Assembly: GCA_947444305.1 (NCBI GenBank)
Contig: CANEZP010000021.1
Span: 1-56,342, forward strand
Direction: 5' to 3'
DNA length: 56,342 nucleotides
Origin: Pseudobdellovibrionaceae bacterium
Lineage (GTDB): Bacteria > Bdellovibrionota > Bdellovibrionia > Bdellovibrionales > UBA1609
Shown here: positions 19,129 through 48,802 of the stretch, in pieces
Position numbering within the stretch: position 1 is the stretch's first letter
Layout of the letters: every line of letters starts with the position of its first letter
Notes under the pieces: model-generated
Seen by the model: the letters and a program-made list of their open reading frames with translations, nothing else
Databases searched by the model: none
Told to the model about the DNA's origin: nothing
Translations under genes and position numbers: made by a program

Positions 19129-19131
19129 GAC

Positions 19132-19899: not shown

Positions 19900-19917
19900 G
19901 ATGTCGCCCTTCAGCTT

Positions 19918-25733: not shown

Positions 25734-27182
25734 CTAAAACATTTTCTTACGTTTAGACGACGGTAAGATGCGCAGCATGTCCCGGTATTTGGCGACGGTG
25801 CGGCGGGCGATTTGGATGCCGTCTTTTTTCAAAAGCTCGACGATTTTTTGATCGCTCAACGGGTTCTTGTCGTCCTCGTCGCTGACCAAGTGTTTGATCT
25901 TGAGTTTGACCGATTCGGAAGCCAATGAGTCGCCATCGGTTTTCGAAATACCGGAGTTGAAAAAGTATTTCAGTTCAAAAATCCCGCGCGGCGTGTGCAC
26001 GTATTTGTTCGTGGTCACGCGCGAGACGGTGGATTCGTGCATCCCGATGTCGTTCGCGATATCACGCAAGATCATCGGCTTGATGAAGCCAGGGCCTTTT
26101 TCGAAAAAATCTTGCTGATGCTTTACGATCGACTCGGTCACTTTGTAGATCGTACGCTGGCGTTGGTGGATGGATTTGATCAGCCACACGGCCGAGCGCA
26201 GTTTGTCTTGGATATAGTTTTGCGCCGTTTCGCCGCCGCCTTCGGACTGCGTTTTGTCGCCCTTCAAGATATTCTTGTACAAGTTAGAGATACGCAGGCG
26301 GGGTAAGCCGTCTTCGTTCAACGCGACCATGTACTCTTCACCGACTTTGTACACGTACACGTCGGGGGTCACGAACTGCGTGTCCTGCGGCATGTAGGCA
26401 CGGCCCGGCTTGGGGTCCATCGAGTAAATCGTTTTGCACATCTCAACGACGTCTTCCATCGGGATGTTCATGGCCTTAGCGATGCCGCCGTAGTTCTTCT
26501 TTTCGAGATCTTTGATGTGTTCATTGATCAATTTCACCAAATCGTTGGTGTCTTCTTCGAGGTGCTTCGCTTGGATGAGCAAACATTCTTTTAAGTCACG
26601 GGCGCCGACGCCGGCGGGATCGAACTCCTGCAGGAACGGAAGCATCTCGGTGACCTCGATGAGATCAACTTCTTCTTCCTTTGCGATTTCTTCCATGGGG
26701 GTCTTTACGTAACCGTCGTCGTCGACGTACGAGATGAGAACCGCCATCAAAGCTTGCTCTTCTTCGTTGAAGCCGCCGAGTCCGAGCTGCCACATTAAGT
26801 GATCATGGAGCGAAGTCGTCGTCGAAATCAGATTTTCGTAGTTCATGATCTCGTCTGAACCACCCACCGTGCCTTGCGGCGGTTTGTAGTTCGTGTCGAG
26901 ATAGTTTTCCCATTCGAATTCTTCTTGGGCACGAGGATCGCTGGCCGCGACCGCCTCTTGGCTGTCGGGGGTCGATTCGCTTTTTTCGACTTCGGTTTTC
27001 GCGGGCTCGTCGACGGTAGAGTCTTCGAACTCTTCGAGTACGGGATTCTCGTCGAGTTCTTTGCGGATCGCACCCTCAAGCTCGAGACGTGAAAGCTGCA
27101 AGAGCTTGATCGCTTGTTGCAATTGCGGCGTCATCCGCAATTGTTGCGACAACTTCAAACTGGTTTTGAGCTGCATAGCCAT
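25734..27182 (-). CDS. rpoN: RNA polymerase sigma-54 factor
   Basis: RpoN directs RNA polymerase to -24/-12 promoters and needs AAA+ activators such as the one at 47525. The 482-aa protein has the glutamine/leucine-rich region I (TSLKLSQQLRMTPQLQQAIKLLQLSRLELE), an acidic region II (~45-100), the core-binding domain, the HTH (ESTVSRVTTNKYVHTPRGIFELKYFF) and the RpoN box ARRTVAKYRDML near residue 463. It lies 28 bp after lptB, as in many Proteobacteria. It is separated from hpf by the transposase module. Confidence 0.98.
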   Translation of the reverse strand: MAMQLKTSLKLSQQLRMTPQLQQAIKLLQLSRLELEGAIRKELDENPVLEEFEDSTVDEPAKTEVEKSESTPDSQEAVAASDPRAQEEFEWENYLDTNYKPPQGTVGGSDEIMNYENLISTTTSLHDHLMWQLGLGGFNEEEQALMAVLISYVDDDGYVKTPMEEIAKEEEVDLIEVTEMLPFLQEFDPAGVGARDLKECLLIQAKHLEEDTNDLVKLINEHIKDLEKKNYGGIAKAMNIPMEDVVEMCKTIYSMDPKPGRAYMPQDTQFVTPDVYVYKVGEEYMVALNEDGLPRLRISNLYKNILKGDKTQSEGGGETAQNYIQDKLRSAVWLIKSIHQRQRTIYKVTESIVKHQQDFFEKGPGFIKPMILRDIANDIGMHESTVSRVTTNKYVHTPRGIFELKYFFNSGISKTDGDSLASESVKLKIKHLVSDEDDKNPLSDQKIVELLKKDGIQIARRTVAKYRDMLRILPSSKRKKMF

Positions 27183-29127: not shown

Positions 29128-29829
29128 ATGGTCTTAAATTGGTTTGTGCAAAAAAATGAAAACGTCGAGGGCCCCATCTCTACCGACGATGTGCAAACTC
29201 GCCTGCAGACCGGTCAGTTGAGCGACAAACACATGATCTGGGGCCGCGGTCTCGAGACTTGGATTACCCTCTCGCACTGGCAACAAGAGTTGCCGCACCT
29301 CGCGACGGGCGGTCAAGTCGAAGTCGTTCAGGAAATGTGGCACTACGCGAGCGGCGGCAAATCGCTCGGTCCCTTTCCGAAAAGCTTACTCGTTGAAGAA
29401 TTGAAGAACGTCGAGAACGTCGGCGACGTGATGATTTGGACTAAAGGGATGAAAGAGTGGGCTCCGCTTTTCGAGTTTCACGATTTGCTCTCCGCCGTTG
29501 GGATTAATAAACGGCAGTATCCCCGCGCCGATCTTACCGGCCGCGCGCTGATAAAGACCTCCGGTATGACTTTGATCGGCAAGCTTTTAACATTATCCGA
29601 AGGTGGATGCGGCATCGCGATTGAGCAGGGATTAGTGCCCGGCCAAGCCTTCACGCTGGAAATGCAAAGCCCCGGTTTCCGGGATACGCTGCACGCCAAA
29701 GCCGAATGCCGCTACGTGAGCGAAGGCATCGCCGGCATCAGGTTCACCCAAATTTCAAAGGAAACTAAGAGCGCGATTATTCAATTCGTAAAACAATCGC
29801 AGACGCGGTTCGTGCTGAAGGCCGCTTAA
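29128..29829 (+). CDS. GYF-GYF-PilZ domain protein (candidate c-di-GMP receptor)
   Basis: This 233-aa cytoplasmic protein has two GYF_2-like modules (~5-53 with NVEGPISTDDVQTRLQTGQL and MIWGRGLETW; ~71-118 with GKSLGPFPKSLLVEEL and MIWTKGMKEW), then a PilZ domain (~125-228). PilZ binds c-di-GMP through RxxxR, here RQYPR at 129-133, and (D/N)xSxxG, here TLSEGG at 155-160, so the usual acidic residue is replaced by Thr. GYF modules bind proline-rich peptides, and the neighbouring FHA-TonB protein has a proline-rich linker. GYF also occurs in Myxococcus GltJ. A c-di-GMP switch for the adjacent envelope machine is an inference. Confidence 0.82.
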   Translation: MVLNWFVQKNENVEGPISTDDVQTRLQTGQLSDKHMIWGRGLETWITLSHWQQELPHLATGGQVEVVQEMWHYASGGKSLGPFPKSLLVEELKNVENVGDVMIWTKGMKEWAPLFEFHDLLSAVGINKRQYPRADLTGRALIKTSGMTLIGKLLTLSEGGCGIAIEQGLVPGQAFTLEMQSPGFRDTLHAKAECRYVSEGIAGIRFTQISKETKSAIIQFVKQSQTRFVLKAA

Positions 29830-29846
29830 TAATTGCGGCCAAGCGT

Positions 29847-30431
29847 TTAATTAACGGCCGCGGCTTCGCCCGGTTTTTTGATAACGGCAAAATTGATTTC
29901 TTGCATGCCCGCTTCGGTCACCGAAAACATCACTTTTTTAACGGTCAGGAAATCAACCATCTTATCGGCCTGAACGGTGATCTTGCGGAACTCTTCGATC
30001 TCGGTCACTTTTTGAACTTGTTTAGCGTCGTTGACGGCCGCGCGGAGCTGATTGCCCACGCTGCGTTTTTTCTGTTCACCGCTTTCGACCGTTTTCTTCA
30101 GCATTTCCATCAGCGGTTTGATTTCCCACTCGGTTTGCTGCTTCACGGCCGCGAAATCGGCGATCTTTACGTTGTTCAGCATGATGCCGTCGGTGGCGAT
30201 CAAGACCACGTTCGAAGGTGAAAGTTCCTTTACCGCTTGCGCGGAGGGAAGATCAACTTTTTCGGGCATCGGTAAAACTTGATTCGTCGTCGCGTAGTTT
30301 TGCAGCAAGAAGACACAAAGCACGGTGAACATATCCACCATCGCCGTCATGTTCAGGGGCGCTACGGCACTGCGTTTACCGCCGCCTTTTTTACCGCGCT
30401 TTTTACGTTTTCCGGGCACATGAATCGGCAT
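29847..30431 (-). CDS. ExbD/TolR-family protein (second copy)
   Basis: This 194-aa protein has a very basic N terminus (GKRKKRGKKGGGKR), a single membrane helix (~29-46) with the channel aspartate Asp33 in LNMTAMVDMFTVLCVFLL, and a periplasmic domain of ~145 residues containing a helical insertion (residues ~100-145) not seen in short ExbD. With ExbB upstream it would form a proton-driven motor. It is separated from the first ExbD by 82 bp holding a terminator-like hairpin, so its level may be lower. It is convergent with the GYF-PilZ gene (17 bp gap). Confidence 0.88.
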   Translation of the reverse strand: MPIHVPGKRKKRGKKGGGKRSAVAPLNMTAMVDMFTVLCVFLLQNYATTNQVLPMPEKVDLPSAQAVKELSPSNVVLIATDGIMLNNVKIADFAAVKQQTEWEIKPLMEMLKKTVESGEQKKRSVGNQLRAAVNDAKQVQKVTEIEEFRKITVQADKMVDFLTVKKVMFSVTEAGMQEINFAVIKKPGEAAAVN

Positions 30432-30482
30432 CTGACACTCCTGTTACAACCTCAGTCCATTCTTGGACCGAGTAAATCTAAA

Positions 30483-30502
30483 GCCGCCCAAGCCTGGGCG
30501 GC
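30483..30502 (-). terminator. terminator-like hairpin between the two ExbD genes
   Basis: On the minus strand a perfect 8-bp stem GCCGCCCA/TGGGCGGC with a 4-nt loop is followed by TTTAGATTTA. This fits a weak or partial intrinsic terminator. It would attenuate read-through from exbB-exbD1 into the second exbD gene. Confidence 0.5.
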
Positions 30503-30513
30503 GCAATATTAGA

Positions 30514-30990
30514 TCAGGGCGCGGAGCCCGCCGTCGCCACCGAAATTTCGGGGAAACCGGCGGTCAACAACGCATCCATCCCACCGATCAAAGAATCGTA
30601 GGGCAATTCGTCGAGCACCGTAACGACGGCGTCGACTTTTTCGGGATACAGTTCCTTAATCTTCTTCAACTCAACGATCAGCTTCGTATTGTCGTATGTA
30701 CCGCTAACCTTCGGGAAATTCAAAGTTGAACGACCGATGAGCACGCGGTAACCATCCCTCAAAACGTCGAGGCGGAAGGGAATCTCGGCCTTCGGGGGCG
30801 GCTCCACTTTATCGTCGTTCGATTTTTTTCCGTAGATCGAGCTGCCGATTTGAATCATCGACACCTGCGTCCAAACGGCGGTGATGAGCAAAAAGATAAT
30901 ACATACCGACATCAAATCGATAATGGGAACGAGGTTTAGATCAACCGTCGTGCCCCTGCCATCATCATCGCCATCACTAATGCTTGCCAT
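30514..30990 (-). CDS. ExbD/TolR-family protein (first copy)
   Basis: This 158-aa protein has a short acidic N terminus, one membrane helix (~20-42) with the channel aspartate Asp25 in VPIIDLMSVCIIFLL, and a compact periplasmic ExbD/TolR domain. It starts 3 bp after the ExbB stop, so the two are made together. In Myxococcus the comparable motor is AglR-AglQ-AglS, one TolQ-like and two TolR-like proteins, which is exactly the composition here. Confidence 0.9.
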   Translation of the reverse strand: MASISDGDDDGRGTTVDLNLVPIIDLMSVCIIFLLITAVWTQVSMIQIGSSIYGKKSNDDKVEPPPKAEIPFRLDVLRDGYRVLIGRSTLNFPKVSGTYDNTKLIVELKKIKELYPEKVDAVVTVLDELPYDSLIGGMDALLTAGFPEISVATAGSAP

Positions 30991-30993
30991 GGA

Positions 30994-31689
30994 TTAATCC
31001 TTAATCTTGTCTCTGTTAGCGACGACTAAGTTCATCAAAGTCATCGAGCTTTCCATCATGTCGTTGATGGCGCGTGAAATGCGGATTTGGAAGAAACCGT
31101 AAGCTACGACGGCGGTGATCGCCACGAGCAGACCGAAGGCGGTACAGTTCAGAGCTTCGGAAATACCCATCGATAGGCGCGCGGCTTTCGTTGCGGCGTC
31201 GGCTTCGGCGACACCACCGAATGAAGTGATCAGACCGATGATTGTTCCCATAAGACCGACGAGAACGCCGACGTTACCGAAAACCGCGAGGAAGGAAACC
31301 CAACCTTCGAGGCGAGGAGTTTCGCGCAATACGGAAGCGTCCATCGCGACTTGAACTTCTTCGTCGGGGCGGCGGTTCATGACCTGAACGAGACCGGCCT
31401 TAAGCGTGTTCGTCAGCGGCGTCGGGCGCGAATCGCAGAAAGCGATGGCCTGACGAATGTCTCCGCGCAAAATCATCGTGAAGAGATTTTCCGTGATGTT
31501 GTTTTTATCAACGGTCAGGCGCTGAAGAGCCATCAGACGGTTGATGATAAGAAACGCCACCAAAATACCGATCGCGGCGATAACGATCATGACCGGTCCG
31601 CCCTTACAGAAGGCTCCGGCGATAAAGTTTGTGTAACCTGCGCAGTGATCGACTAGATCCACCGTTTGACTCATTGCTTGCTGTTCCAA
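30994..31689 (-). CDS. ExbB/TolQ/MotA-family proton channel protein
   Basis: This 231-aa inner-membrane protein has three predicted helices: ~32-50, and the paired ~135-160 and ~180-200. The MotA_TolQ_ExbB core is WVSFLAVFGNVGVLVGLMGTIIGLITSF and ISEALNCTAFGLLVAITAVVAYGFF, with the pore Thr/Ala positions expected of proton channels. The start is taken as TTG 31689, with GGAGG six bases upstream; an in-frame ATG at 31674 is possible. It is the first gene of an ExbB-ExbD-ExbD set that follows the FHA-TonB gene and is the likely force generator for that complex. Confidence 0.92.
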   Translation of the reverse strand: MEQQAMSQTVDLVDHCAGYTNFIAGAFCKGGPVMIVIAAIGILVAFLIINRLMALQRLTVDKNNITENLFTMILRGDIRQAIAFCDSRPTPLTNTLKAGLVQVMNRRPDEEVQVAMDASVLRETPRLEGWVSFLAVFGNVGVLVGLMGTIIGLITSFGGVAEADAATKAARLSMGISEALNCTAFGLLVAITAVVAYGFFQIRISRAINDMMESSMTLMNLVVANRDKIKD

Positions 31690-31737
31690 AATACCCCTCC
31701 CTGGGATGTTAAATCTAAGACAAGTTTAATTTAGGTT

Positions 31738-31755
31738 GGCCGCAAGCTTGCGGCC
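31738..31755 (-). other. perfect 18-bp palindrome upstream of exbB
   Basis: GGCCGCAAGCTTGCGGCC is a perfect 18-bp palindrome in the 73-bp gap between the FHA-TonB gene and exbB. As RNA it would fold into a stem with an AGCT loop. The minus-strand continuation (AACCTAAATTAAA) is AT-rich but not a U-run. It could be an attenuator, an mRNA-processing site or an operator. Confidence 0.45.
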
Positions 31756-31762
31756 GACCCGA

Positions 31763-33961
31763 CTACTGACTCGAGAAGACGAACGGGAAAATCACGCGGC
31801 CGACTTGATCTTTCGGCGGATCGGGGAATTTCCACATCTTCAGGCGACTCATAATACAATTGGCCACGCGGTCATTTCCGAGAGCGTTGCTCTTCGTGGA
31901 AACTCTTGAGACGCGGCCTTCTTCTTCGATATCCCACTCGAGTACAACTTTTCCGTACAGATCGGGGGACTTCTGCAATTCTTGCTCGTAACAATTGCGG
32001 ATCTCGCGCAAGTGCTCGCGGATAACGCGACGGATGGCTTCTTTATCCATGCCCCCGCCGAACTCACCTTCTTGGCCGGTCACGTTGATCTGTACCGAAC
32101 CTTTTTGTCCGAGCCCGCCCGTACCGTAGCCGGTCGTGCCCGTGCCGCGGCCTTGAGTTCCGACGCCGGCGATTCCGTAAGTGGCCGTGCCTTTACCGCC
32201 CGCGCCCGTGTCCTTTAATTTTCCGCCGAGATTATCGCCCGCGCGATTTTCGGAAGAACCGGCGGCGCCCGTCGCGGCGTCGGCCATACCGGCCAATTCA
32301 CCGGCTCCGCTCGCGGCTTGTTGCAAATTCTTTTGCATTCCGCCTTTACCGAACGTCGCGAGCAAACCCATCTTATTCGGATCGGGTTTCTCGGCCTTCA
32401 TGTTGGCGCCTTCTTTCGCGCCCGTCTTAATCGCCGCACCTTGGGCCACCGCCGAAGTGGCGACCTTCGGTTTATTAGCCGAATTCGGCTTCGGCTTCAC
32501 TTCGGCCGCTTTACCCGGATCGGGTTTATTCTCGGCGGCTTTCGACTCGGCCTTTTGCTGCTTTACCGGCTCGGCCGGGGCTTTCTTCTGGTCTTTAACT
32601 TCGACGACCTTCTTAGGCTTTTCCGGTTCGGGCTGCGGCGTCGATTCTTCCTTCGGCGCGGGCGGATTGAACTTTACGATCGCTTTGCGGATCGGTTCTT
32701 CAATCTTTGCTTCGTCTTCAAGAAGCGGCGACGGAGTGTACATGAAATTGTAGAGACCGAGGATCGCGGAGACCGTGAGCGCTAAGATGACGCCGGTGAC
32801 TTCGCTAGAAGTCATATCCAAGAGCGGCGCAACGAGCGGCTTCGGAGTTTCGGCGACGTAACGGATATAAAGTGAGATCAGATCGCCTTGCAAGCCGACG
32901 CGAACCATCTCGCCTTGGCGTAGATCCATTTCGAAGTGCGAACCGGCGTTGCGCATTTTATTCTGGCGCGCGAGCTCGCTGAACGAAAGAGTCTCGCCGT
33001 CGCGGATAACTTCGCCGGTCATTTCTTGGGTAAGACATACCGTGCACGAACCCGCGATCTTCAGAAGTTCGTATTTGCTCTTGCTTGAAATAATCGGAAC
33101 GACGACGTCGGCCGTCGGATCCGAGCTGATGAATACCGAACCGGGACGATTGAAGGTATTGCTGCTGAGAACGCGGTTGTTCCATGAGACGAGAACTTCA
33201 ACGACCGAACCTTTGTGCGGCTTAATAATCTCTTTAAGATCTTTATAGGGAGCCGGGGGCGCAAAAGTTTTGTAGCTTTTCTTTTTCTTGCCGCCGATGG
33301 GCGCACCGAGTTTGCGCGCTTGGGGAATATTCGCCTGAGCGATGTTTCCCTGCATCGGGTTGCCCTGCGTGATGTTCGGCGGTGAGACCGGCTTGCCGGG
33401 CGGTACGAAAGCTTTTTTCTCGTCTTCTTTTTTCTTTGCCGGAGGAATGGGCGGAACGACCGGCGAAACCGGCGCCGCGGACTTCTTTTCCTCGGGCGGA
33501 GTTTGCGGCGGCAACACGGCCATCGGGGCGGTCGGTTCGAGGTCTAAATCTTCGTCATCAACGGGCGGCGGATCGGGCATCGTGAAGTTAACCACGGAGA
33601 CTTGCGTGACGGCCGTGAGGTCAACGCCGTCTTGATGCACGACGGGCGGCGCGGCCGGCTTCGGTACGCCGATGAAGAATTGTAGGCGGAACGGGCCGAT
33701 CGTGATCTCGTCGCCCGAAGTTAAACGGTCTTCGAGGATGCGGTTTCCGGCTTTGAACGTGCCGTTAGAAGAACCTAAATCCGACAGATAGTAATCGCCG
33801 TCGCGCTCTTCGATCATGGCGTGCAAAAGCGCAACGCCGTCGTCTTGCAACTCGAGTTGCACGTCGCTGTTTCGGCCGATGACAATTTGTGAGCTCTCGA
33901 ACTGGCGAACCGTTTCGAGTTTGTCACCTTTGTATACTCTAAGAACTACCGGTTGTTTCAA
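31763..33961 (-). CDS. FHA-domain / TonB-like trans-envelope protein (GltG-like)
   Basis: This 732-aa protein has a cytoplasmic FHA domain (~20-95: IVIGRNSDVQLELQDDGVALLHAMI, DLGSSNGTF), a proline/lysine-rich linker (~125-240), a second beta-rich region (~245-370), one membrane helix (~390-408), a long P/K/E/A- then G-rich periplasmic stretch, and a C-terminal AgmX/TonB-like domain (~645-732: IRRVIREHLREIRNCYEQEL, YGKVVLEWDI). This is the order described for Myxococcus GltG. FHA reads phosphothreonine; the TonB end would contact outer-membrane partners. The start is TTG with GAGG upstream, overlapping the previous stop (TTGA). Confidence 0.85.
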   Translation of the reverse strand: MKQPVVLRVYKGDKLETVRQFESSQIVIGRNSDVQLELQDDGVALLHAMIEERDGDYYLSDLGSSNGTFKAGNRILEDRLTSGDEITIGPFRLQFFIGVPKPAAPPVVHQDGVDLTAVTQVSVVNFTMPDPPPVDDEDLDLEPTAPMAVLPPQTPPEEKKSAAPVSPVVPPIPPAKKKEDEKKAFVPPGKPVSPPNITQGNPMQGNIAQANIPQARKLGAPIGGKKKKSYKTFAPPAPYKDLKEIIKPHKGSVVEVLVSWNNRVLSSNTFNRPGSVFISSDPTADVVVPIISSKSKYELLKIAGSCTVCLTQEMTGEVIRDGETLSFSELARQNKMRNAGSHFEMDLRQGEMVRVGLQGDLISLYIRYVAETPKPLVAPLLDMTSSEVTGVILALTVSAILGLYNFMYTPSPLLEDEAKIEEPIRKAIVKFNPPAPKEESTPQPEPEKPKKVVEVKDQKKAPAEPVKQQKAESKAAENKPDPGKAAEVKPKPNSANKPKVATSAVAQGAAIKTGAKEGANMKAEKPDPNKMGLLATFGKGGMQKNLQQAASGAGELAGMADAATGAAGSSENRAGDNLGGKLKDTGAGGKGTATYGIAGVGTQGRGTGTTGYGTGGLGQKGSVQINVTGQEGEFGGGMDKEAIRRVIREHLREIRNCYEQELQKSPDLYGKVVLEWDIEEEGRVSRVSTKSNALGNDRVANCIMSRLKMWKFPDPPKDQVGRVIFPFVFSSQ

Positions 33962-34311
33962 TTTTTACCTCTGCCCCGCTTAACTTCGTCCGCGTCTCTG
34001 CGCATTTCCGGTAAGAAATCTTCGCGCAGCTTGATCAGGCGTTTGAAATTGAATTGCTTCTTCTGCAAGAGATAAAACAATTCAGGCTTCTTCAACTCAC
34101 CCTCAACTAATTCGTCTTCGAAATCGATCTTCGTACGTTTCTTATCGCCCGCTTTGTCGCCCGCGGCGGCCGTGCTCCCGCCGCTTGCGGCAGCAGGTTT
34201 CTCCGCCGCTTTGGTTTCGCCCTCTTCTTGCGCATTCGCGCGTGAAGCTTCGAACAAAACCGACAAAGTAAGCGCGCCCATCAATAATATGTTAACTGCC
34301 TTTAATCGCAC
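33958..34311 (-). CDS. small exported protein in the Glt-like cluster, 117 aa
   Basis: A signal peptide (to about residue 27, cleavage after ANA) precedes an A/G/K-rich linker and a conserved-looking C-terminal block, IDFEDELVEGELKKPELF then FKRLIKLREDFLPEM. I recall similar short proteins beside TolQR/TPR clusters in delta-type bacteria, but cannot name one with certainty. The start is taken as GTG 34311, with GGAG nine bases upstream and a clean signal peptide; a longer TTG start at 34344 is possible. The stop overlaps the FHA-TonB start. It is likely periplasmic and part of the same complex. Confidence 0.75.
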   Translation of the reverse strand: MRLKAVNILLMGALTLSVLFEASRANAQEEGETKAAEKPAAASGGSTAAAGDKAGDKKRTKIDFEDELVEGELKKPELFYLLQKKQFNFKRLIKLREDFLPEMRRDADEVKRGRGKN

Positions 34312-34350
34312 TGGCCAAGTCTCCGTTTGTTGCCTGGACCCCAAAGGTCA

Positions 34351-37300
34351 CTAGTTTGGTTCGCTTAACGCTTTATCCAGCTCTTCAATTTGCTTGCGGG
34401 TCTTCTCGTCTTCTGCCAAGAACTTCAGCCGATTGAGTTGCTTCTCGCCTTCTTTTTTATCTTTCAACTTGTGTATCAATAAGATCGAGTAGTTCATCAA
34501 AGCGACGACGTTGCCGCTATCGACTTTAAGGATGTCTTGGTAAATGGATTTCGCTTTGTCGGCGTTGCCGGTTCCGCTTAAGGCTAAAGCGTAGTTGTTC
34601 GCTACGTCGAGGCCCACGCCGCGTTTGAGATCACCCTTCACCGCGCCGTAACCGTCCTTCAACAAATCGGAGGCGCGCGTGAAGTCTTTGTACTCGACGA
34701 ACACGCTGCCCAAATTCGCGGCACCGATCGGGTAACCTTTGTTAAGCGTAAGTGCTTTACGGAAGGTTGCGATCGCCGGACGCATTTTCGCCTCGGTCAG
34801 GAAAATAACTCCGAGATTGTTATGTAACGCCGCTTGATCCGGATGCGCTTTGAGCGCGCGGTTCAAGATCGTTCGCGCCATCCCGAGCTTACCCTGCTGA
34901 ATGTAAAACACCGCGAGGATGTTTAAGGCCTTCAGCTCATTCTGATCTTTACCCAAGCGTTTCGAAACCGCGTCGACCATGAGCGACTCTTCTTTGGATC
35001 GGAAAGCGTTCTCGAAGTCTTTGTCTTTCTCGGCTTCCATGGTGTCGGGCATCTTGGTGAGGATCGCCTTCTCGCCGAAATCCGCGAATTTCTCTTTATT
35101 CAAGCGATTCAATTCGCGTTGGGCGGTCTTCATGCCGTCCGAGTAACCTTCGAGTGCGTAACCGCGTTCAATGGCTGAATCGTAACTCTTGATCGCTTCG
35201 TCTTGGAAAGGCTTGGCAACGCCGTCGACGCCGGCTTTGTACTGCTTCAAGCTTTCTTCATCCAAGCCCTTCGGCAACGGAACGCCGTAGATCGCGGCCG
35301 CCATGTGTTGGTTCGCCTGACCGATCATCGCGAGAGAATTCACGATGTACGGGCCGTCATCGTAGCGAATGACGGATTTGAGTTGTTCCTTAAGCCGGCC
35401 GAGCAATGCGAGCTTTTGCTTAACCGCTTCTTGCTGACGCTGCGGATTCTGCGGGATTTTGATCGCGCGTAATTCGTCGAAGGTTTTCGAGACTTCGGTA
35501 AAACGGCATTCGGCGGCGTAACTGACGCCTACCGGCTGTTCGGTCGTCGAATGCGCTTTAACTTGGTAAATTACCTTCTTGCACCAGTCTTCGAAGTCCG
35601 TCTTGCGGCCTTTTAACTGGTGAATCTTCGCGACCTTATAAGCGGATTCGATCAAACCGGCTTTGTTGCCCGGGCGTGCGTCGTAATACTGCTTGTAGAA
35701 GTCTTGGGCCTTCGTGATGTTCCCGCGGCGCTCTTGCAACTGGGCCATCAACAACAAGGTTTCCCATTTGTCTTTACCCTTCGAGGTGTCGAAGTAAGCC
35801 TGGTAGTTGTTCGCGGCCGCGGTGTAAGAATTCATCCCGTCGCGAATAATCGCGGCGTTGAACAAGAATGCCGTCGACTCTTTGTCTTTCGGGTTCTTCT
35901 TTACGTAACCTTCGTAAGATTCGGCCGCTTTTTGGTATTGGCCGGTCTTCTCGTAGATGCTCGCGATGAACTGACTCGATTTTTTCTTCGCGTCTTCGTT
36001 CTTGGGGCTCTTGTCGGCCATCACGACCGCGTACATCGCGGCGGCTTTCGCAAGATCACCCGCGCGTTCGAAATTGATCGCGGCGTTAAACGAGGCCTGG
36101 GGACCCAGTTCGCCGCCGGCATATTTTTTTGAGAAAGCTTCGTACGCTTTCGCGGCGCCTTCGAAATCTTTCTTCTGCTCGAGATCTTGGGCTTCTTTGA
36201 ATTCAGCCCGGAGGAGGACGCCTTTAACCTGCTCGCCGACTTGGCTGCCCGCCAAATCCGGGTTGTTGAGGATATCTTGACCGGCTTGCTTCAAACCGCC
36301 GAAATCCTTTTTCAAGTTGTAGATATCCAAGGTCAAGTTCGCCGAGTACTGGGCGTACGGTGACTTCGGGTAATCCTTGATGATGCTATTGAAAGCCACC
36401 AAGGCTTTGTCGAATTGGTTATGGTAGTAATAGAGCGCGCCCATTTTGTAGCGCATGGCCGGAACGCTTTCGCCCTTCGGGAAAGCTTTCACGTATTTCT
36501 CCGAAGCGATTTCAAACGCGGCCACGTTCGCGGTGAACGGAACCGGCTCGAGCGTATCGCCCACGGCTTTCTTCAGGTTCTCTTCCTTCGGCAATCCTTT
36601 TTCGAGAGCGAGAACTTGGTTGAGAACAGCTTTTTCGTAGTAAGGCGAATTCGGCGCGTTGTCGGATATCCAGGCGTAGTGGATCGAGGCAGTTTCGAAA
36701 TCGCCCATGTCGAAGAGCAATTCCGCGTAGAAGAAATGCATCTCGTCAAGCTTCACGCCTTGCTTGAAGGTCGCGAAGTATAACTCGTAACCTTGCTTGG
36801 CGGCTTTTTGCGCGGCGGCCACGCGGCTGTTCTGCGCGGTCTGGTGATTTTGCAGAACGTGGTTACGCAAGGTCGTTTCGATCAACTGGTTGGCGCGGCC
36901 GATCAACTCTTTGTCTTTCGCGTTGGCCTTAGCCCATTCGCTCTCGGGCGAATAGTTCTGAATCCAGTTGTAAAGTTCGTTGCGGAACGTGTCTTTCGAA
37001 TCGGTGGAAACGTACATCGTTACGATTTGGTATTGGTAATCGTAAGCCTTCGGCGAGTTGGGACGCTCGGTGATCAAGTCGCGAAAGATGTAGCGGGCGC
37101 CGTCGCGGTTCCCCACGTCGGCGTAATAGTAGGCGAGCTTTTCGAGCAAACCGAATACCTGTTTCGCGCCCGCGATTTCTTCGAAGTAACCACGCGCGGC
37201 CTGGGGCGTACCCGACTCGGCGTAGAACACGACCAAATCTTTTTGCGCTTCCGTCGCCAATCGGATGCGGCTTACGCCGCCGGCCGAGGCATCTTGCGAA

Positions 37301-38199
37301 CCTTTAGCTACCCGGCCCGCGCGAATAACGCGTTCGAGCGAGAGCAAGGCCGGCTTAACCTGACCCGTTTTGTACTGACACCAAGCCATCTTATATATAG
37401 CGAACGACCACAAACGCGCGCGCTTGTTTAACGAAACGGCCGTGTAGTGCTTCAAAGCGTCCGTCCACATTTCACGTTCGAAGAAGTATTCGCCGAGGGC
37501 GAAGTTCGATTCTTCTACGTACGGACTTTGCGGATACTCGGCGGTCAAACGGCGGTAATAGTCTTTACCTTTTTCGGGCTGGTTTAACTCGAAGTAGTTA
37601 TACCCAAGGAAGAACAGGGCCTGATCCATTTTCGGATCTTTGGGGAAGTCGCGCAGGAAGTATTCATAAAGCTGCACGGACTTCTTGTTGTAGTCTTGCG
37701 CGGCGTTCAGGTTAAGCTTCGGGCGGACTTTCGTTTCGCCTTTTTGAAATTTGGCGATTTGTTCGTCGTAGCGCTGTTGCAAACGGTATTCGATCAAACG
37801 TGATTTTTCGACGTAAAGCTCGGCCAGACGCAGCCACAGTTCGCCGCGGCGTTTGCTGTTTTTAAACTGCTGGGTCAATTTGTAGAGCTGGCGGATCCCC
37901 TGATCGGTGATCTTCTCGAGCTCACCTTCGTTCGTACCTTCTTCGTAATACAAGGTCGAACGTGACGGCGGCTTAATCGCGGTCAGCGAAACTTTTTGAT
38001 GCAGTTCCTGCTGCTTTTTATATGCAGGCAGCGCGGCTTTATCCTTCGAGAACGTCACCTTCTTGGTGTTCTTCTCGATCCGCTTGAGCACGTCACCGAC
38101 CGTCTTGCGCGTAGGTTTGTCCGCGGCTAACGAAGTAGCCGAGAAGCCTAGTAACGCAATAAGGAGGGCGCGCTTAATTACAACTTTGTGTTCCGACAT
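34351..38199 (-). CDS. large exported TPR-repeat protein (GltD-like), 1282 aa
   Basis: A signal peptide (cleavage near ALAA, ~residue 26) is followed by some 1200 residues of tetratricopeptide-type helical repeats: QALFFLGYNYFELNQPEKGKDYY, then SPYVEESNFALGEYFF and others, ending with canonical TPRs (AALHNNLGVIFLTEAKMRPAIATFRKALTL, AANLGSVFVEYKDFTRAS, ALMNYSILLIHKL). It is a periplasmic scaffold. Length and neighbours fit the very large TPR protein GltD of the Myxococcus gliding complex; that assignment is by architecture only. Its start overlaps the upstream TPR gene by 26 nt. Confidence 0.8.
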   Translation of the reverse strand: MSEHKVVIKRALLIALLGFSATSLAADKPTRKTVGDVLKRIEKNTKKVTFSKDKAALPAYKKQQELHQKVSLTAIKPPSRSTLYYEEGTNEGELEKITDQGIRQLYKLTQQFKNSKRRGELWLRLAELYVEKSRLIEYRLQQRYDEQIAKFQKGETKVRPKLNLNAAQDYNKKSVQLYEYFLRDFPKDPKMDQALFFLGYNYFELNQPEKGKDYYRRLTAEYPQSPYVEESNFALGEYFFEREMWTDALKHYTAVSLNKRARLWSFAIYKMAWCQYKTGQVKPALLSLERVIRAGRVAKGSQDASAGGVSRIRLATEAQKDLVVFYAESGTPQAARGYFEEIAGAKQVFGLLEKLAYYYADVGNRDGARYIFRDLITERPNSPKAYDYQYQIVTMYVSTDSKDTFRNELYNWIQNYSPESEWAKANAKDKELIGRANQLIETTLRNHVLQNHQTAQNSRVAAAQKAAKQGYELYFATFKQGVKLDEMHFFYAELLFDMGDFETASIHYAWISDNAPNSPYYEKAVLNQVLALEKGLPKEENLKKAVGDTLEPVPFTANVAAFEIASEKYVKAFPKGESVPAMRYKMGALYYYHNQFDKALVAFNSIIKDYPKSPYAQYSANLTLDIYNLKKDFGGLKQAGQDILNNPDLAGSQVGEQVKGVLLRAEFKEAQDLEQKKDFEGAAKAYEAFSKKYAGGELGPQASFNAAINFERAGDLAKAAAMYAVVMADKSPKNEDAKKKSSQFIASIYEKTGQYQKAAESYEGYVKKNPKDKESTAFLFNAAIIRDGMNSYTAAANNYQAYFDTSKGKDKWETLLLMAQLQERRGNITKAQDFYKQYYDARPGNKAGLIESAYKVAKIHQLKGRKTDFEDWCKKVIYQVKAHSTTEQPVGVSYAAECRFTEVSKTFDELRAIKIPQNPQRQQEAVKQKLALLGRLKEQLKSVIRYDDGPYIVNSLAMIGQANQHMAAAIYGVPLPKGLDEESLKQYKAGVDGVAKPFQDEAIKSYDSAIERGYALEGYSDGMKTAQRELNRLNKEKFADFGEKAILTKMPDTMEAEKDKDFENAFRSKEESLMVDAVSKRLGKDQNELKALNILAVFYIQQGKLGMARTILNRALKAHPDQAALHNNLGVIFLTEAKMRPAIATFRKALTLNKGYPIGAANLGSVFVEYKDFTRASDLLKDGYGAVKGDLKRGVGLDVANNYALALSGTGNADKAKSIYQDILKVDSGNVVALMNYSILLIHKLKDKKEGEKQLNRLKFLAEDEKTRKQIEELDKALSEPN

Positions 38200-39748
38200 A
38201 ATGGTAGTTCCCTAATTCATCCAGCCAGTATTCCCCACGGAAGGGCCAGTATTCGTAACCGTTTTGGATATAGAAATCGCGCTGATTGGTATCGTCCACT
38301 TGTTGATCCGGGAGTTCTTTGCCCGCGATCTTCTTCTTCAAGGTTTCTTTGCGGCCGTTCAACATCTCGTAGCGCGCAAAACCTTCCTGCTCGATCAAAT
38401 CCAAAAGCTCCTCTTTGATCGTCAGCAAGTGATTGCGAACGATCTTGCCGGCTTTTTGTTTGGCTTTGACTAACCGGGTGGCCAAAACTTTTTTGGAGTA
38501 CAGGCCGACGGCCGAGCTGCCCCAACCACCGGGAACCGCGTTGATGCGGCGGCGCTCTTCGAGCAAGCGGCGGATGTACTGGAACACGCTCTGGAAGTCG
38601 GATTCACGCGTAATCTTTTGCGCAACGATGTAAGGGATCGGCAAACTCATCTTCGAAGGATCACCGTTCTTCTTCGAGATCTTCATCATGTCGTTCATCA
38701 TGGTGAAGTATTTTTCGGGCTGATTGACGGAATCGAGCGTCTTATCGATCTGCTTGTAAACGGGCTTGTAGATATGGCTGAACAAATTGAGCGTTTTGTC
38801 CATCTCGTCGTACTTACAGATGTAGAGATAGACGATCGAACGCAACAACAGCGACTCGGGCATGTAATGGTCTTCGTAAAAGGACGAGTGCAGCGTATGG
38901 AAGTTACTCAAAGAGGAACGAAATCTTCCGGACCGCAACATCGCCCAGCTCGATTCGAAAATCGTATCGTGCCAGAACTCGGTATCGCGCGGAATTTCGC
39001 GGTAAGCCTCGATCGCGGGGTCCCAGGCTTTCTTTTGGTAAAGCACGCGCGCTTTACCCATCATGCCGGCCACTTTCGTTTTGTCGGTGATCGGCGCGTT
39101 GGCGCGCGATTGGATCAAAGTTTCGAAGGTAGCGAGTGCGCGATCGAGCTGATTGGACTCGGCATAGGCTAACGCTTCGTTGTACTTCGCGTTGTTATAA
39201 AGATTATGCCCTCGCGCGACGCGATCAAACGAGCGCGCGGCGTTCTCAAAATCTTTATTCCGCATTTGGAATTCACCGATGCGGTAGTGGAGCATATCAC
39301 GGTGCGCACGCGGGAATTCATCGACGTTCACGCGCGAGATGGCGTAGTTCAATAAGGTGTCGTCGCCCAACGAATCGGCCGCCAGCGAGAGCTTTTCAAG
39401 CGATTGCTTGATGTACTTGTTGTTGCCCTCTTTTACCACGCCGATGAACTGAAAGGCCGAAACCTGGTTCAATTTCATCTGGTGCAAGGTCATGCCCAAG
39501 ATGTACTTGATCTGCATGCGCTTATCACGGAAGCGCGGTGAATAGCTGAGTTGGAACAAACGCTGCGAAGCTTCGGCGTAACGTCCGGCCTTCGCGAGCG
39601 TCAGTGCGTCCGCTAAATCGCGCTCTGTACCGGTCGGCAGTGCCGTGCGTGAGCGCGGGACTTTCGAAGCGTTTCCGGCGCGGCGTTTTTCGGCGGCGTT
39701 GGCGGGCAAAAGCGAAATAACTAATAGTGCTAAGATTATGCTTCTCAT
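38174..39748 (-). CDS. exported TPR-repeat protein (GltE-like), 524 aa
   Basis: A signal peptide (cleavage after NAA, ~residue 19; no lipobox) precedes TPR-like repeats through ~residue 300 (ALTLAKAGRYAEASQRLFQL, HYRIGEFQMRNKDFENAARSFDRVA, YNEALAYAESNQLDRALATFETLI, KARVLYQKKAWDPAIEAYREI). The C-terminal region is helical (~300-490), ending with an aromatic segment (YEYWPFRGEYWLDELGNYHY). It is probably periplasmic. Size and place match GltE of the gliding machine, which however is a lipoprotein. The start overlaps the beta-barrel stop by 4 nt. Confidence 0.78.
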   Translation of the reverse strand: MRSIILALLVISLLPANAAEKRRAGNASKVPRSRTALPTGTERDLADALTLAKAGRYAEASQRLFQLSYSPRFRDKRMQIKYILGMTLHQMKLNQVSAFQFIGVVKEGNNKYIKQSLEKLSLAADSLGDDTLLNYAISRVNVDEFPRAHRDMLHYRIGEFQMRNKDFENAARSFDRVARGHNLYNNAKYNEALAYAESNQLDRALATFETLIQSRANAPITDKTKVAGMMGKARVLYQKKAWDPAIEAYREIPRDTEFWHDTIFESSWAMLRSGRFRSSLSNFHTLHSSFYEDHYMPESLLLRSIVYLYICKYDEMDKTLNLFSHIYKPVYKQIDKTLDSVNQPEKYFTMMNDMMKISKKNGDPSKMSLPIPYIVAQKITRESDFQSVFQYIRRLLEERRRINAVPGGWGSSAVGLYSKKVLATRLVKAKQKAGKIVRNHLLTIKEELLDLIEQEGFARYEMLNGRKETLKKKIAGKELPDQQVDDTNQRDFYIQNGYEYWPFRGEYWLDELGNYHYVGTQSCN

Positions 39749-40581
39749 CGGTAAGTCGCCTCGGGGAAGAAGAAGCTCATGCCAATTCCCAGGAAGAGAT
39801 CGTTTTGATTGAGGGTCTCTTTTTGGTTTTTAGCGTTCGTCGCGGTTGCTTGGTATACGTTCCAATAAAGATCCCAGCGGAAGGCAACGGCCTTGCTCCA
39901 GGCAAAGACTTGGCTTGTTCCTACGTGGAGAGTGGGCACGCTTTCGTCTTCGGTCGTCTGAGTTAATCCGCCACCCACGTTGAAATTAAGATCGAAGGGC
40001 ACGATGGTTTTATTTAGCCACGTGATCTTGCCGTAAATCGGATTCCATTTGAAGGCGAGAATGTAAAAACCTTTCGAGGTAATTACGTTGTCGGTCGTGA
40101 TGCCCGTACAAGCCGCGCAGCCCGGGCGACTTTCAAGATCGTCGGTCACTTGTCGCGTGGTCGTCGTCGCGAAAGCGGCGATGGCCTCGAGCGCGTAACG
40201 TTCGCGCAGGTAGTAGGCCATGCGTGCGCTAACGCCGATCGCGTTGAAGAACGGGTTGTTCAAATTGGTGAAGGCGCCGACCGACGCTTCGAAGCGCTGA
40301 GTCTTCGGTAAAAAGCGCCGCTGGATAACGGCGACGTCCGAGAACGGTGCGAGATTGGCCAGATCCGAAAGGTTCTGCGCTTCTTTCTCCGCCGGTTTTG
40401 CTTCCTTCACGACGGGAGACTTCGGTTTCACAACCTTCGTGTCTTCTTTATCGTAAAGCTCTTCTACGTCTTTTTCGGCAGAAGGCGCTGCTCCTGAATC
40501 TTCAAGATCACCTTGCGCCATCGCGAGTTGCGAAAAGCAAAGATGAAGCGCCAACAATGCCACTGAGAGATGTTGTAACAA
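39745..40581 (-). CDS. predicted outer-membrane beta-barrel protein (GltA/B-like), 278 aa
   Basis: A signal peptide (cleavage after AMA, ~residue 22) and a charged D/E/K/P periplasmic linker (~23-80) precede a domain of alternating amphipathic strands with Gly/aromatic ends: FEASVGAFTNLNNPFFNAIGVSARMAYYL, FDLNFNVGGGLTQT and the C-terminal NDLFLGIGMSFFF. It looks like an 8-stranded barrel. It resembles the following 251-aa protein in plan, so the two may be paralogues. The start is TTG 40581 with GGGG upstream. The role as outer-membrane end of the TolQR/TonB machine is inferred. Confidence 0.75.
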   Translation of the reverse strand: MLQHLSVALLALHLCFSQLAMAQGDLEDSGAAPSAEKDVEELYDKEDTKVVKPKSPVVKEAKPAEKEAQNLSDLANLAPFSDVAVIQRRFLPKTQRFEASVGAFTNLNNPFFNAIGVSARMAYYLRERYALEAIAAFATTTTRQVTDDLESRPGCAACTGITTDNVITSKGFYILAFKWNPIYGKITWLNKTIVPFDLNFNVGGGLTQTTEDESVPTLHVGTSQVFAWSKAVAFRWDLYWNVYQATATNAKNQKETLNQNDLFLGIGMSFFFPEATYR

Positions 40582-40724
40582 GCACTACCCCAAGTTGATG
40601 TATCCCGTTAACAGGATACAAAGAACACTAATCAAATTGAATATATATAAAGGTAATCTGGACCACGACCTGGTCGAGTCCACCGTGCGCGATGGAGCTC
40701 GAGCTCGAAAAGTGGGCATCGGAA

Positions 40725-41480
40725 TTACAAAAGGAAGACGAGCGCGAGCCCGATTTGGCCATTGTAGAAAATGCGATCTTCGAACGCGGTGCCGGACGGA
40801 TTGTCCGTCGGACCTAAGCGTTGCGTGGGCGGATTGGGCCCTTGGAAAATCAACCAGCGAAGATCGGCGCGAATTCCGAAGTTCTTCGTGATGAAGAAAT
40901 TTTGCCCGACGCCTAAGTTCACGCCGACGGTGCTCACGCTATCCATATTAATGTAGCCGAGGCCGGCGAGCGCGAATAAATTCAGATTCATTACCGTTTG
41001 CTTCGAAACCGAGATCTTACCGTAGTACGCGATGAACTGATAATTTGCGAACACCGCCCAAACAGGGTGCGGCGCCTTCGAAGCATCAAACGACGGGAAA
41101 GCGTTTGGTGGCGTGGGATTCCCGGCTTTCAACTGCGTGCCGTAATCGCTCAAACCGTCCATCCAAAACAAACCCTGAACGTTGATGGCGCTCGTATCGC
41201 TAAGATTGTACGTGCCCATTCCGCTGAACATATAGTCACTGTAATAGGGCTCGTTCATTTCGAGACCGCCGCCGAGCGCCAATTCGAAACGTTTTTCGGT
41301 GATGACGTTGCGATTTAAAACCGCACGTTGTTTATCGAAGACCGGTAGCGTAGATTCACGCGCGAGTTCTTCCTCGGGAAATTCAATATCATCGGCACTT
41401 GCGGCTTGGCTTAGGGTCAGGCCAAAACCCGACACGAACAAAGCCAAAGACAATACGAGAAGATTTTTTGAAGTACCCAT
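40725..41480 (-). CDS. predicted outer-membrane beta-barrel protein (GltA/B-like), 251 aa
   Basis: A signal peptide (~residues 1-29) is followed by a short acidic linker and a beta-barrel-like domain with FELALGGGLEMNEPYYSDYMFSG, NLNLFALAGLGYINMD, GVNLGVGQNFFITKNFGIRADLRW and a terminal FYNGQIGLALVFLL typical of barrels. It shares the RxVLNRNVITEKRFELALG entry with the other barrel gene's RRFLPKTQRFEASVG. It is the first gene of the cluster; 157 bp upstream and 143 bp downstream hold no other gene. The downstream gap has GGAC...GTCC and GTATCC...GGATAC palindromes and a GAGCTCGAGCTC palindrome. Confidence 0.75.
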   Translation of the reverse strand: MGTSKNLLVLSLALFVSGFGLTLSQAASADDIEFPEEELARESTLPVFDKQRAVLNRNVITEKRFELALGGGLEMNEPYYSDYMFSGMGTYNLSDTSAINVQGLFWMDGLSDYGTQLKAGNPTPPNAFPSFDASKAPHPVWAVFANYQFIAYYGKISVSKQTVMNLNLFALAGLGYINMDSVSTVGVNLGVGQNFFITKNFGIRADLRWLIFQGPNPPTQRLGPTDNPSGTAFEDRIFYNGQIGLALVFLL

Positions 41481-41637: not shown

Positions 41638-43164
41638 TTAGATTTGGCCGCAGCTCAACGCCGCGAGCGCAACCGCCGCTTGATGATCGAGGTAACCAAG
41701 TCTTCTTTGGATGATGGCTTCGCTTAAAAGGATGCTTTGGTCTTTGCGTAAACATTTTCGTAACTCTGCAACTTGCAACGGTCGGCTTTCTTGCGCGCGT
41801 GCCTGATCAACGAGCTGAAGCGACGAAACTAAATTTTCCTCGCGCACGAACCGCCGCTCGGTGGCTTGGGCGCCTAAGGTCGATGGAACGTTCAGGTTCG
41901 GCAGGATGCCGTTGCGATGCACACTTTCGCCCGAAGGCCGCAGGTAGCGGCTTACCGTTTTTGTGATCGTTAAGTTCGGGTAACCCTCTAGGTTGTTAAC
42001 AAATTGCGTAGTGCCTTTGCCGTAACTTCGCTCGCCGATGATCCACGCCCGCGCGTAATCCTGCAGTGCCGCGGCGGCGATTTCGGAAGCACTCGCCGAC
42101 TTCGCGTTCATCAGAACAACGAGCGGCAAATTCGCGAACGGCGCGGCGGCGGCCCGTCTTAGAGAATCATCGGGCCAATGCGCGGGCTCGAAATCGAGTG
42201 CTTTAGGAAACGGCAGGTTAAGGTGCTCACGCGTGACGATCAATCGCTGCGCGGTGAATAGCCGAACGACGCATTCACTCTCATCGACCAGGCCACCGCG
42301 ATTATGCCGCAAATCCAAAATGACCCCGGCAAGCGGTTCGGAACTTAACGCTTGCGAAGCCGTAATCCTCTTTCGCAAAAAATCGCAAGTACCCCGGTGA
42401 AAGCTGCGCAAACGCACCTGCAAATATCTACTTCGGTCACGGATGAACTCGGCGGCCGGGTTTTCGGGTACGACGATGGGCGCAACTTTGAGCGTGAGCG
42501 CGGTTCGCTGACCTTTTCGCTCGACGATAAGTTTCAAGCTTTCGCCCGGAGTACCGTTCAACCTCGGTAACGCCGAATGGGCTTTGCTCAGGGTATCGAG
42601 TGATTCCCCGTTGATGGAAACAATTCTGTCATGCACTTGGATGCCCGCTAAGGCGGCCGGTGAATCCGGGAAGATCCGGAAGACAAAAAGACCGGCGGCA
42701 TTAGCGTCACCCTCGATGCCCGTACCGTAGTAGGTGTTGTTGTCGCCGTTGATTCTAGAACGTAAAAAAAGCTTGGGATTGAGTTGCGCATAGGGATCGA
42801 AGGTTTTGATTTGCGCGTTGATCATGCTGCCGATAATCCACTCGACGGGCTGGCCGTTTTGCTTCTGCAGAATGAAGTCGAGCGCGCTTTCGAAGCCGTA
42901 GGCTTGCGGGTAGGCGGTCGCTTTCAACTTGGTTATCGCGCTCTCACCCGACAGATCTCGGAGTTCTGCACCTTTGAGAACGGCCGCCCGGCAAGCGTCG
43001 AAATACTTTTCACCGCCCGCGCAGTCTTTGTCGTTGATCACGCTCTTGAGCAACTTCACGTCCGCGCCTGAATCTTTCCAAAACTCGGTTTCGAGCTCGG
43101 GCTTGAGACTGCCGCCCGCAAGCGGGACTGTGATAAAAAGAAAGATCAGCAAAAACGTGCGCAT
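41638..43164 (-). CDS. S41 family C-terminal processing peptidase with PDZ domain
   Basis: This 508-aa exported serine protease has a signal peptide (~1-17), a helical N-terminal region, a PDZ domain (~145-230: GTGIEGDANAAGLFVFRIFPDSPAALAGIQVHDRIVSING) and an S41 core with VILDLRHNRGGLVDES, SASASEIAAAALQDY and GKGTTQ. The Ser/Lys dyad is Ser358/Lys383, with the same 25-residue spacing as in E. coli Prc. Four cysteines are spread through the N-terminal and middle region. It stands alone on the minus strand after kdsD. It may trim periplasmic or outer-membrane proteins; targets are unknown. Confidence 0.92.
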   Translation of the reverse strand: MRTFLLIFLFITVPLAGGSLKPELETEFWKDSGADVKLLKSVINDKDCAGGEKYFDACRAAVLKGAELRDLSGESAITKLKATAYPQAYGFESALDFILQKQNGQPVEWIIGSMINAQIKTFDPYAQLNPKLFLRSRINGDNNTYYGTGIEGDANAAGLFVFRIFPDSPAALAGIQVHDRIVSINGESLDTLSKAHSALPRLNGTPGESLKLIVERKGQRTALTLKVAPIVVPENPAAEFIRDRSRYLQVRLRSFHRGTCDFLRKRITASQALSSEPLAGVILDLRHNRGGLVDESECVVRLFTAQRLIVTREHLNLPFPKALDFEPAHWPDDSLRRAAAAPFANLPLVVLMNAKSASASEIAAAALQDYARAWIIGERSYGKGTTQFVNNLEGYPNLTITKTVSRYLRPSGESVHRNGILPNLNVPSTLGAQATERRFVREENLVSSLQLVDQARAQESRPLQVAELRKCLRKDQSILLSEAIIQRRLGYLDHQAAVALAALSCGQI

Positions 43165-47524: not shown

Positions 47525-48802
47525 ATGACCACTCGCAACCTCAGCGCCGTTCCCACGAGCGATATCGGCTTTTTGACCTGGAAAGACTCCGTTCGCGTCC
47601 ACCAGGTTGAACTCGGCGAATTCCTCACCATCGGGCGCGACTGTGAGAACCACGTTGTGATCGGTTGTGATTTTGCCTCAAGCCGCCACACCCGCATCGA
47701 GCGCAAATCGACCGGGTTCCTTCTGCGCGACCTGCGCAGCCGCAACGGCACCTATCTCAACGGCGCGCGCATCATCGAAGCGCTCCTGTCCGACGGTGAT
47801 CGCATCCGGGTCGGCCAGACGGAAATGAATTTTAGCTGGCAACGGGCCGAGAACGTGGCGACCGAAATGACCAGCAAAAATTTGGTTTGGGCGGCTCAAC
47901 TCGCGCGATTGCCTAATATTTCCCAATCGCAATTTCCCGTTCTGCTCACCGGGCCCTCGGGCACGGGAAAAGACCTTTTGGCGCAAGCCGTTCACCGCCT
48001 CAGCGCCCGCCGGGACGGTCCTTTCGTTAGCGTCAACTGCAGTGCCTTGTCCGATTCGTTAGTCGAAAGTGAATTGTTCGGGCACGTGAAAGGCTCGTTC
48101 ACCGGCGCCACCGATAACCGCAAGGGCGCATTCGAAGCCGCGCGCGGCGGAACCTTATTTCTAGATGAGATCGGCGATCTTCCCCTCGGGCTTCAACCTA
48201 AACTTTTGCGCGCGCTCGAAAACTCGCAGATCCGCCCGGTCGGCAGCGATCGCGCGGTCGAGACCGACGTGCGCATCATCGCGGCGACGCACCACGATTT
48301 AAAAAAGCTCGTTTTTGAAGAACGCTTCCGCGCGGATTTATTTTTCCGTTTGCACGTGGTGCAAATGCAAACGCCCGCTTTAAAAGAACGTAAAGAAGAC
48401 TTCGAAGACTTGCTGTACACGTTCGCGCGCACCATGCGCGTGCGCTTCTCGTTCGGCGCGATTCAATATTTAAAGTCTCACGATTGGCCGGGCAATATCC
48501 GCGAGTTGAAAAACGTCGTGGCCCGCGCAAAAGCCTTCTGGGGTAGCGAAGAGATCACCGAAACCATCGCGGCGCAGTTGATTGACCGATTACCCGATGC
48601 CGATCAACCGGTGACCGCCGGGCCGTTCAAACCCAGCCGCTCCGTCATCAAGGAGATCGAGCTTGAGATGATCAAAAGCCGTTTGATCGCGAATCACGGC
48701 AACCAGCGTAAAACCGCGGTGGATTTAGGGATGGCGAAGTCGACACTGCATGATCGCATCAAAGGCTACGGAATCGACGTTGGTCAGTTGGTGGGTGAGT
48801 AA
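47525..48802 (+). CDS. FHA-domain sigma-54-dependent transcriptional activator
   Basis: This 425-aa enhancer-binding protein has an N-terminal FHA domain (~30-105: [35 protein letters not shown]) in place of a receiver domain, so its signal is probably phosphothreonine from a Ser/Thr kinase. The AAA+ domain has Walker A GPSGTGKD (143-150), the sigma-54 contact loop GSFTGA (190-195; usual form GAFTGA) and Walker B LFLDEIGD (211-218). A Fis-type HTH ends the protein ([21 protein letters not shown]). AGGAG five bases upstream supports ATG 47525. Its targets are not known; inverted repeats flank the gene. Confidence 0.94.

Follow-up and report, generated by a model that had tools for sequence, protein, structure and literature searches.

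The question raised by this locus is what kind of machine it encodes, and how that machine might be controlled. Positions 29128-41480 of the window (the whole stretch of DNA that was analysed, 56,342 nucleotides from contig CANEZP010000021.1 of a Pseudobdellovibrionaceae bacterium, GenBank assembly GCA_947444305.1) held ten genes, of which nine stood on the minus strand, overlapping or closely spaced, and the tenth encoded a protein with two GYF modules and a PilZ domain (GYF-PilZ). The operon is a Glt/Agl-type envelope machine with an AglRQS-like motor, a further member of a known family of machines. The reading preferred here, with a probability of roughly 0.6, is that the machine most likely serves gliding and that GYF-PilZ is its dedicated regulator, predicted to bind a cyclic dinucleotide and to dock through its GYF modules. 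It is carried by the gene content, the Agl-type motor, the conservation of the operon and the attachment of GYF-PilZ genes to two paralogous Glt operons. An earlier note on this DNA had given the genes, their coordinates and their order; all were present, with significant family matches, and they are listed here by position.

29128..29829, plus strand: GYF-GYF-PilZ protein, 233 residues, predicted cytosolic cyclic-dinucleotide receptor or adaptor (Pfam GYF_2 twice, E 4e-19; PilZ, 2e-12)
29847..30431, minus strand: ExbD2, AglS-like, with an N-terminal cytosolic tail (MPIHVPGKR) shared with Myxococcus xanthus AglS (Pfam ExbD, 1e-11)
30514..30990, minus strand: ExbD1, AglQ-like (Pfam ExbD, 8e-12; concatenated tree)
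30994..31689, minus strand: ExbB, AglR-like proton-channel subunit (Pfam MotA_ExbB, 1e-26; in the tree with AglR, apart from TolQ/ExbB)
31763..33961, minus strand: GltG, with FHA domain, proline-rich cytosolic linker, transmembrane segment (TM) and TonB-like AgmX/PglI tail (NCBIfam GltG, 1.7e-81; myxo_SS_tail, 3.5e-32)
33958..34344, minus strand: CglF (= GltF), small exported protein (NCBIfam CglF, 5e-14)
34351..38199, minus strand: GltD-GltE fusion, periplasmic TPR protein, 1282 residues (TPR families; GltE model at residues 987-1256)
38174..39748, minus strand: GltC, periplasmic TPR protein, 524 residues (NCBIfam GltC, 7e-59)
39745..40581, minus strand: outer-membrane beta-barrel, GltA/GltB-like (TIGR04565 OMP_myx_plus, 3.5e-25, over cut-off)
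40725..41480, minus strand: outer-membrane beta-barrel, GltA/GltB-like, first gene of the operon (TIGR04565 OMP_myx_plus, 3e-22, over cut-off)

The operon ran from 41480 to 29847 in the order barrel, barrel, GltC, GltD-E, CglF, GltG, ExbB, ExbD1, ExbD2. The GYF-GYF-PilZ gene converged on ExbD2, some 18 bp separating the ends of the two, and diverged from lptC; it is a neighbour of the operon, outside its transcription unit. Clear Pfam or NCBIfam assignments were obtained for all genes except the large TPR protein, where the GltD part was assigned from its position and TPR content. GltG matched the full length of its NCBIfam model at 275 bits, under the equivalog cut-off of 650, and carried an FHA domain (Pfam, E 3e-14). 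GltC and CglF matched equivalog models built on Myxococcus strongly, yet under the curated cut-offs, and the AgmX/PglI tail model on GltG was over its cut-off, as for both barrels. The earlier note had taken the two large TPR proteins for GltD and GltE; the 1282-residue protein is a GltD-GltE fusion, the 524-residue protein is GltC-like and not GltD or GltE, and the 'small exported protein' of the note proved to be CglF. In many relatives GltD and GltE were two genes, of about 1060 and 290 residues. The fused form was seen in the genus of the window and several relatives (e.g., L049-L051, L055), the separate form in others, and fusion or fission seems to have been repeated in evolution.

The affinity of the motor was determined from a tree of 50 ExbB sequences, including E. 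coli TolQ and ExbB, Tol-like paralogues and M. xanthus AglR; the earlier note had named this comparison as a test of its proposal. AglR, AglQ and AglS were picked in M. xanthus strain AM003 as an ExbB-ExbD-ExbD trio, whose open reading frames from ATG (245, 162 and 194 residues) had the published lengths. The window ExbB fell within a Glt-type clade with AglR. Support of 100/100 separated this clade from TolQ and ExbB of E. coli and from the Tol-like paralogues, and the window ExbB did not group with TonB-uptake or Tol sequences; the motor was therefore of the kind that the earlier note had proposed, and not of the Tol or TonB-uptake type. In this single-gene tree the window ExbB was sister to AglR alone (support 93/89). 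Concatenation of the three motor proteins gave one group, supported at 100/100, of the window set, AglRQS and a third set of paralogues, apart from the motors of a second operon (described below) and M. xanthus M2, and inside this group AglRQS paired with another paralogue set at only 40/59. The single-gene and concatenated trees disagree on one-to-one orthology with AglRQS. The two ExbD genes follow exbB in order, as for AglQ and AglS, and the tail motif M[AP]IxxPGxR was present in every Glt-1 ExbD2 that was read (a few begin with V rather than M) as well as in M. xanthus AglS, while other ExbDs did not have it; it was retained as an Agl-type signature.

Likeness to the Glt-AglRQS system, the proton-driven motor that powers gliding in M. 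xanthus, covers AglR/Q/S, GltG (FHA plus TonB-like tail), GltC, GltD, GltE, GltF/CglF, the GltA/B-like barrels and the PGxR of the AglS N-terminal tail. The window differs in that GltJ was not found, in having one operon rather than three clusters, and in carrying GYF on a PilZ protein. Gene order within the operon was kept across the class, and so was its flank of rpoN-lptB-lptC; kpsF-pyrG often stood at the opposite end. The same cluster was found at 0.78-0.79 Mb in genome G016, presumably Bdellovibrio bacteriovorus HD100, adjoining lptC-lptB-rpoN. This position fits the Bd0828-Bd0838 locus, in which Luciano et al. 2011 (PMC3169522) saw the likeliest gliding apparatus of B. bacteriovorus. 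Gene order and the place beside lptC-lptB-rpoN were as in the window; however, GltD and GltE are separate genes in HD100, and the window-type GYF-PilZ is at 1.91 Mb, not adjoining.

There was also a second Glt operon, paralogous to the first, which had a GltD, CglF, GltG and barrel of its own and usually ExbB, ExbD, ExbD, GltE and GltC. A different GYF-PilZ gene accompanied it in 23 of the 26 genomes sampled, which came from ten families. The same association was observed in the window's own genome (contig C12, L190). This gene was codirectional with the operon, being first in it, directly before GltD, or up to ~1.1 kb upstream. Exceptions were G032 and G036, where only a longer GYF-PilZ paralogue was examined, and G002, where the contig ended. 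HD100 has the second-operon type of GYF-PilZ gene at 1.403 Mb, where ExbB adjoins it, and the window-type gene at 1.911 Mb. The former appears to correspond to Bd1482, a PilZ gene that Hobley et al. 2012 (PMC3271064) placed at the 5' end of a B. bacteriovorus gliding operon and proposed as a link between cyclic di-GMP (c-di-GMP) and gliding. Like the window gene, Bd1482 is a PilZ gene that accompanies a Glt operon, and a locus of this kind in HD100 encodes a GYF-PilZ; Bd1482 differs in belonging to the second Glt operon and in having one GYF. Because two paralogous machines each carry a GYF-PilZ gene, chance or passenger inheritance of a single segment is hard to sustain. One such PilZ gene had been flagged by position (PMC3271064); in the papers searched, the GYF module on it and the recurrence of this module on both machines were not found described, and none combined PilZ with a GYF domain, or GltJ/AgmX with GYF. 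In Bdellovibrionaceae the second Glt operon had a shorter, single-GYF version of the gene, and a long GYF-GYF-PilZ paralogue stood apart from Glt genes (L241, L242, L248, L252, L197), four of these loci being near a pair of large ABC-transporter-like genes.

The GYF module itself was of the GltJ type. Its nearest solved structure was the GYF domain of GltJ/AgmX (7z3c, E 0.006), and the GltJ model matched the window protein (3.6e-8). M. xanthus GltJ/AgmX (zinc ribbon, GYF, TM, TonB-like tail) shares the GYF_2 module with the window protein; unlike the latter, it sits in the membrane, carries a zinc ribbon and lacks PilZ. Conversely, the window GYF-GYF-PilZ has no TonB-like tail and therefore fails the GltJ layout of GYF, TM and tail on one chain. 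In M. xanthus and Archangium, GYF was found on proteins with a TonB-like tail (GltJ and its paralogues), and one Archangium frame showed a weak combination of GYF and PilZ. Three Bdellovibrionia genomes were searched (the window genome, HD100 and G001); no open frame in them contained both GYF and a TonB-like tail, and GYF occurred mainly with PilZ. GltJ, already noted as missing from the window, is absent at least as a protein of this form. GltJ is essential in Myxococcus. It would be natural to suppose that GltJ in Myxococcota and GYF-PilZ in Bdellovibrionia serve one and the same cytosolic port. GltH, GltI and GltK were not seen in the window, although no search was aimed at them, and they were reported absent from HD100 by Luciano 2011 (PMC3169522). 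The window genome also encoded a 527-residue protein with two GYF domains and no PilZ (G000:C4:162664-163035; L191:8465-10045), and similar large GYF frames (500-1000 residues) were present in other Bdellovibrionia.

In the mechanism proposed, a proton-driven, AglRQS-like ExbB/ExbD/ExbD motor would energise the TonB-like tail of GltG, which would act through the periplasmic GltC and GltD-E TPR proteins and CglF onto the outer-membrane barrels, most likely moving or gating surface contacts for gliding. GYF-PilZ would act as the dedicated regulator, its PilZ domain binding a cyclic dinucleotide and its GYF modules docking it on the cytosolic face of the machine, at the place served in Myxococcus by the built-in GYF of GltJ. 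The RxxxR motif of PilZ was RQYPR in the window protein and was found in all aligned relatives; binding of a cyclic dinucleotide is likely. A bolder version, in which Bdellovibrionia swapped the GltJ control point for a soluble GYF-PilZ clutch, one per machine, with the cyclic dinucleotide directly engaging or disengaging the AglRQS motor, must be considered improbable.

Several observations weigh against GYF-PilZ as a dedicated regulator. The second PilZ motif was TLSEGG in the window protein, not (D/N)xSxxG, and the D/N residue was missing; among aligned relatives, S and G were kept in nearly all, and the D/N position was altered in most, mostly to E in the second-operon type. The ligand could differ from c-di-GMP; in the bolder version above, the altered motif could mean 3',3'-cyclic GMP-AMP (3',3'-cGAMP) instead, which regulates gliding exit in B. 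bacteriovorus (Bd0367; PMC9140294). No single docking motif was common to both machine types. In Bdellovibrionaceae (family f2) the GYF-PilZ gene was unlinked from the operon, being adjacent in 0 of 55 cases. Where it is adjacent, it is convergent with the operon and not co-transcribed, and the remaining neighbours are housekeeping genes (rpoN, lptBC, kpsF, pyrG) that are equally conserved. Lastly, the machine was kept without the window-type GYF-PilZ in genomes of 1.2-2 Mb, and its basic function can therefore do without this regulator. These were several reduced genomes of the window's family, with the operon and no match to the window GYF-PilZ. The five of these that were searched (G052, G064, G070, G076 and G092) had 0 or 1 PilZ genes in all; the relatives of family f1 searched that keep the window-type gene had 5-14. 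GGDEF genes numbered 0-3 in ten genomes without a GYF-PilZ match, versus 1-6 in genomes with one, and G003 had no match to the window protein, yet contained other GYF-PilZ fusions. The low PilZ counts of the five genomes and the persistence of the machine without this GYF-PilZ fit an accessory regulator, not a structural part, and to that extent they speak for the preferred reading.

Among the alternatives, the one that survives best, although it remains unlikely, is an envelope-energising system with a non-gliding core function (e.g., outer-membrane maintenance or prey-envelope crossing), tuned by GYF-PilZ. Matches to the window-type GltG were found in 116 of 119 class genomes, including those of 1.2-2.0 Mb, related core complexes occur in non-gliding bacteria (Luciano 2011, PMC3169522), and a 2026 review still calls the gliding machinery of Bdellovibrio unidentified (PMC13104615). 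Gliding is nevertheless favoured by the gene set, which is the one (AglRQS, GltA-G) that Luciano et al. (PMC3169522) proposed for potential gliders.

It is somewhat less likely again that GYF-PilZ is a mere passenger of the conserved segment rpoN-lptB-lptC-pilZ-glt-kpsF-pyrG, with no functional link to the machine. Of 119 class genomes, 108 had the window-type gene; elsewhere in the phylum it was nearly absent, about 85-90 genomes of other classes giving 2 weak matches. Outside Bdellovibrionaceae it lay within 12 kb of the window-type GltG in 38 of 45 genomes holding both, and the presence of a PilZ gene beside the cluster in relatives, on which the earlier note had staked its proposal, was therefore confirmed in most. 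Adjacency alone was rejected as proof of function, the whole segment being syntenic, and it is weak evidence because the housekeeping neighbours are equally conserved. The convergent orientation also suits a passenger, as do four genomes (G066, G028, G055, G004) where GYF-PilZ stayed at lptC with glt elsewhere, and the Bdellovibrionaceae, where it left while glt stayed. Against these stand the codirectional second gene, attached to the second Glt operon in 23/26 genomes, and the GltJ-type GYF module. In one Bdellovibrio-type genome (L076, G031:C4) the window-type GYF-PilZ had moved to a place ~1.1 kb away from a Glt/ExbB cluster of a third type.

Where GYF-PilZ might dock was addressed by comparing GltG linkers. 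The earlier note had suggested c-di-GMP control through binding of the proline-rich linker, of which the first element, control, was strengthened by the second GYF-PilZ on the second Glt operon, while the comparison of prolines lent no support to the other. The linker was indeed proline-rich in the window and most relatives. However, the second-operon GltG, which has a GYF-PilZ partner, is nearly devoid of proline in the matching segment, PP was entirely absent from several Glt-1 linkers beside GYF-PilZ, and several genomes without the window-type GYF-PilZ kept very proline-rich linkers. The linker failed as a docking site on these three counts; docking on it is doubtful, and the partner of GYF-PilZ is probably a different one. 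The ExbD2 tail motif was also rejected as a common docking site, as it was kept where GYF-PilZ was missing and was absent from the second machine type.

Finally, a TonB-dependent uptake or Tol-Pal system is extremely improbable, for while the ExbB/ExbD/TonB-like architecture and weak, sub-threshold scores to TolQ/ExbB models might suggest it, the operon contained no TolA, TolB or Pal gene and no TonB-dependent receptor, and the grouping of ExbB with AglR, apart from the E. coli and Tol-like sequences, excludes such an affinity.

Gliding serves Bdellovibrio on surfaces and for leaving spent prey, and it is controlled by cyclic-nucleotide enzymes, namely DgcA (PMC3271064) and Bd0367 with 3',3'-cGAMP (PMC9140294). 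GYF-PilZ proteins on two separate Glt machines provide concrete receptor candidates, which in B. bacteriovorus are the genes at about 1.403 and 1.911 Mb. The pairing hints at a means by which predatory-type bacteria may start and stop gliding. A shared control port of Glt machines is also suggested, namely the GYF module, which Myxococcota carry fused to GltJ and Bdellovibrionia fused to PilZ.

Other features of the segment and its surroundings were minor. A scan for promoters and terminators gave no useful signal. Between exbD1 and exbD2, at 30483-30502 on the minus strand, a G+C-rich hairpin of 8 pairs (7 of them GC) preceded a T-rich stretch; it was not clearly above chance in the scan, and could determine the ratio of AglQ to AglS. 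Between the first barrel gene and kpsF was a PDZ/S41-peptidase-like protein (41638-43164, judged from its sequence), found likewise, among the relatives compared, only in the same-genus G008 (L043). Near pyrG, a protein resembling a sigma-54 activator with FHA and AAA+ domains (47525-48802) was present in the window and in L050, L051, L055, L058 and L059, with rpoN (25734-27182) not far away. Three tandem signal peptidase I-like genes (196, 255 and 252 residues), assigned by their sequences only, were located at 18538-20676.

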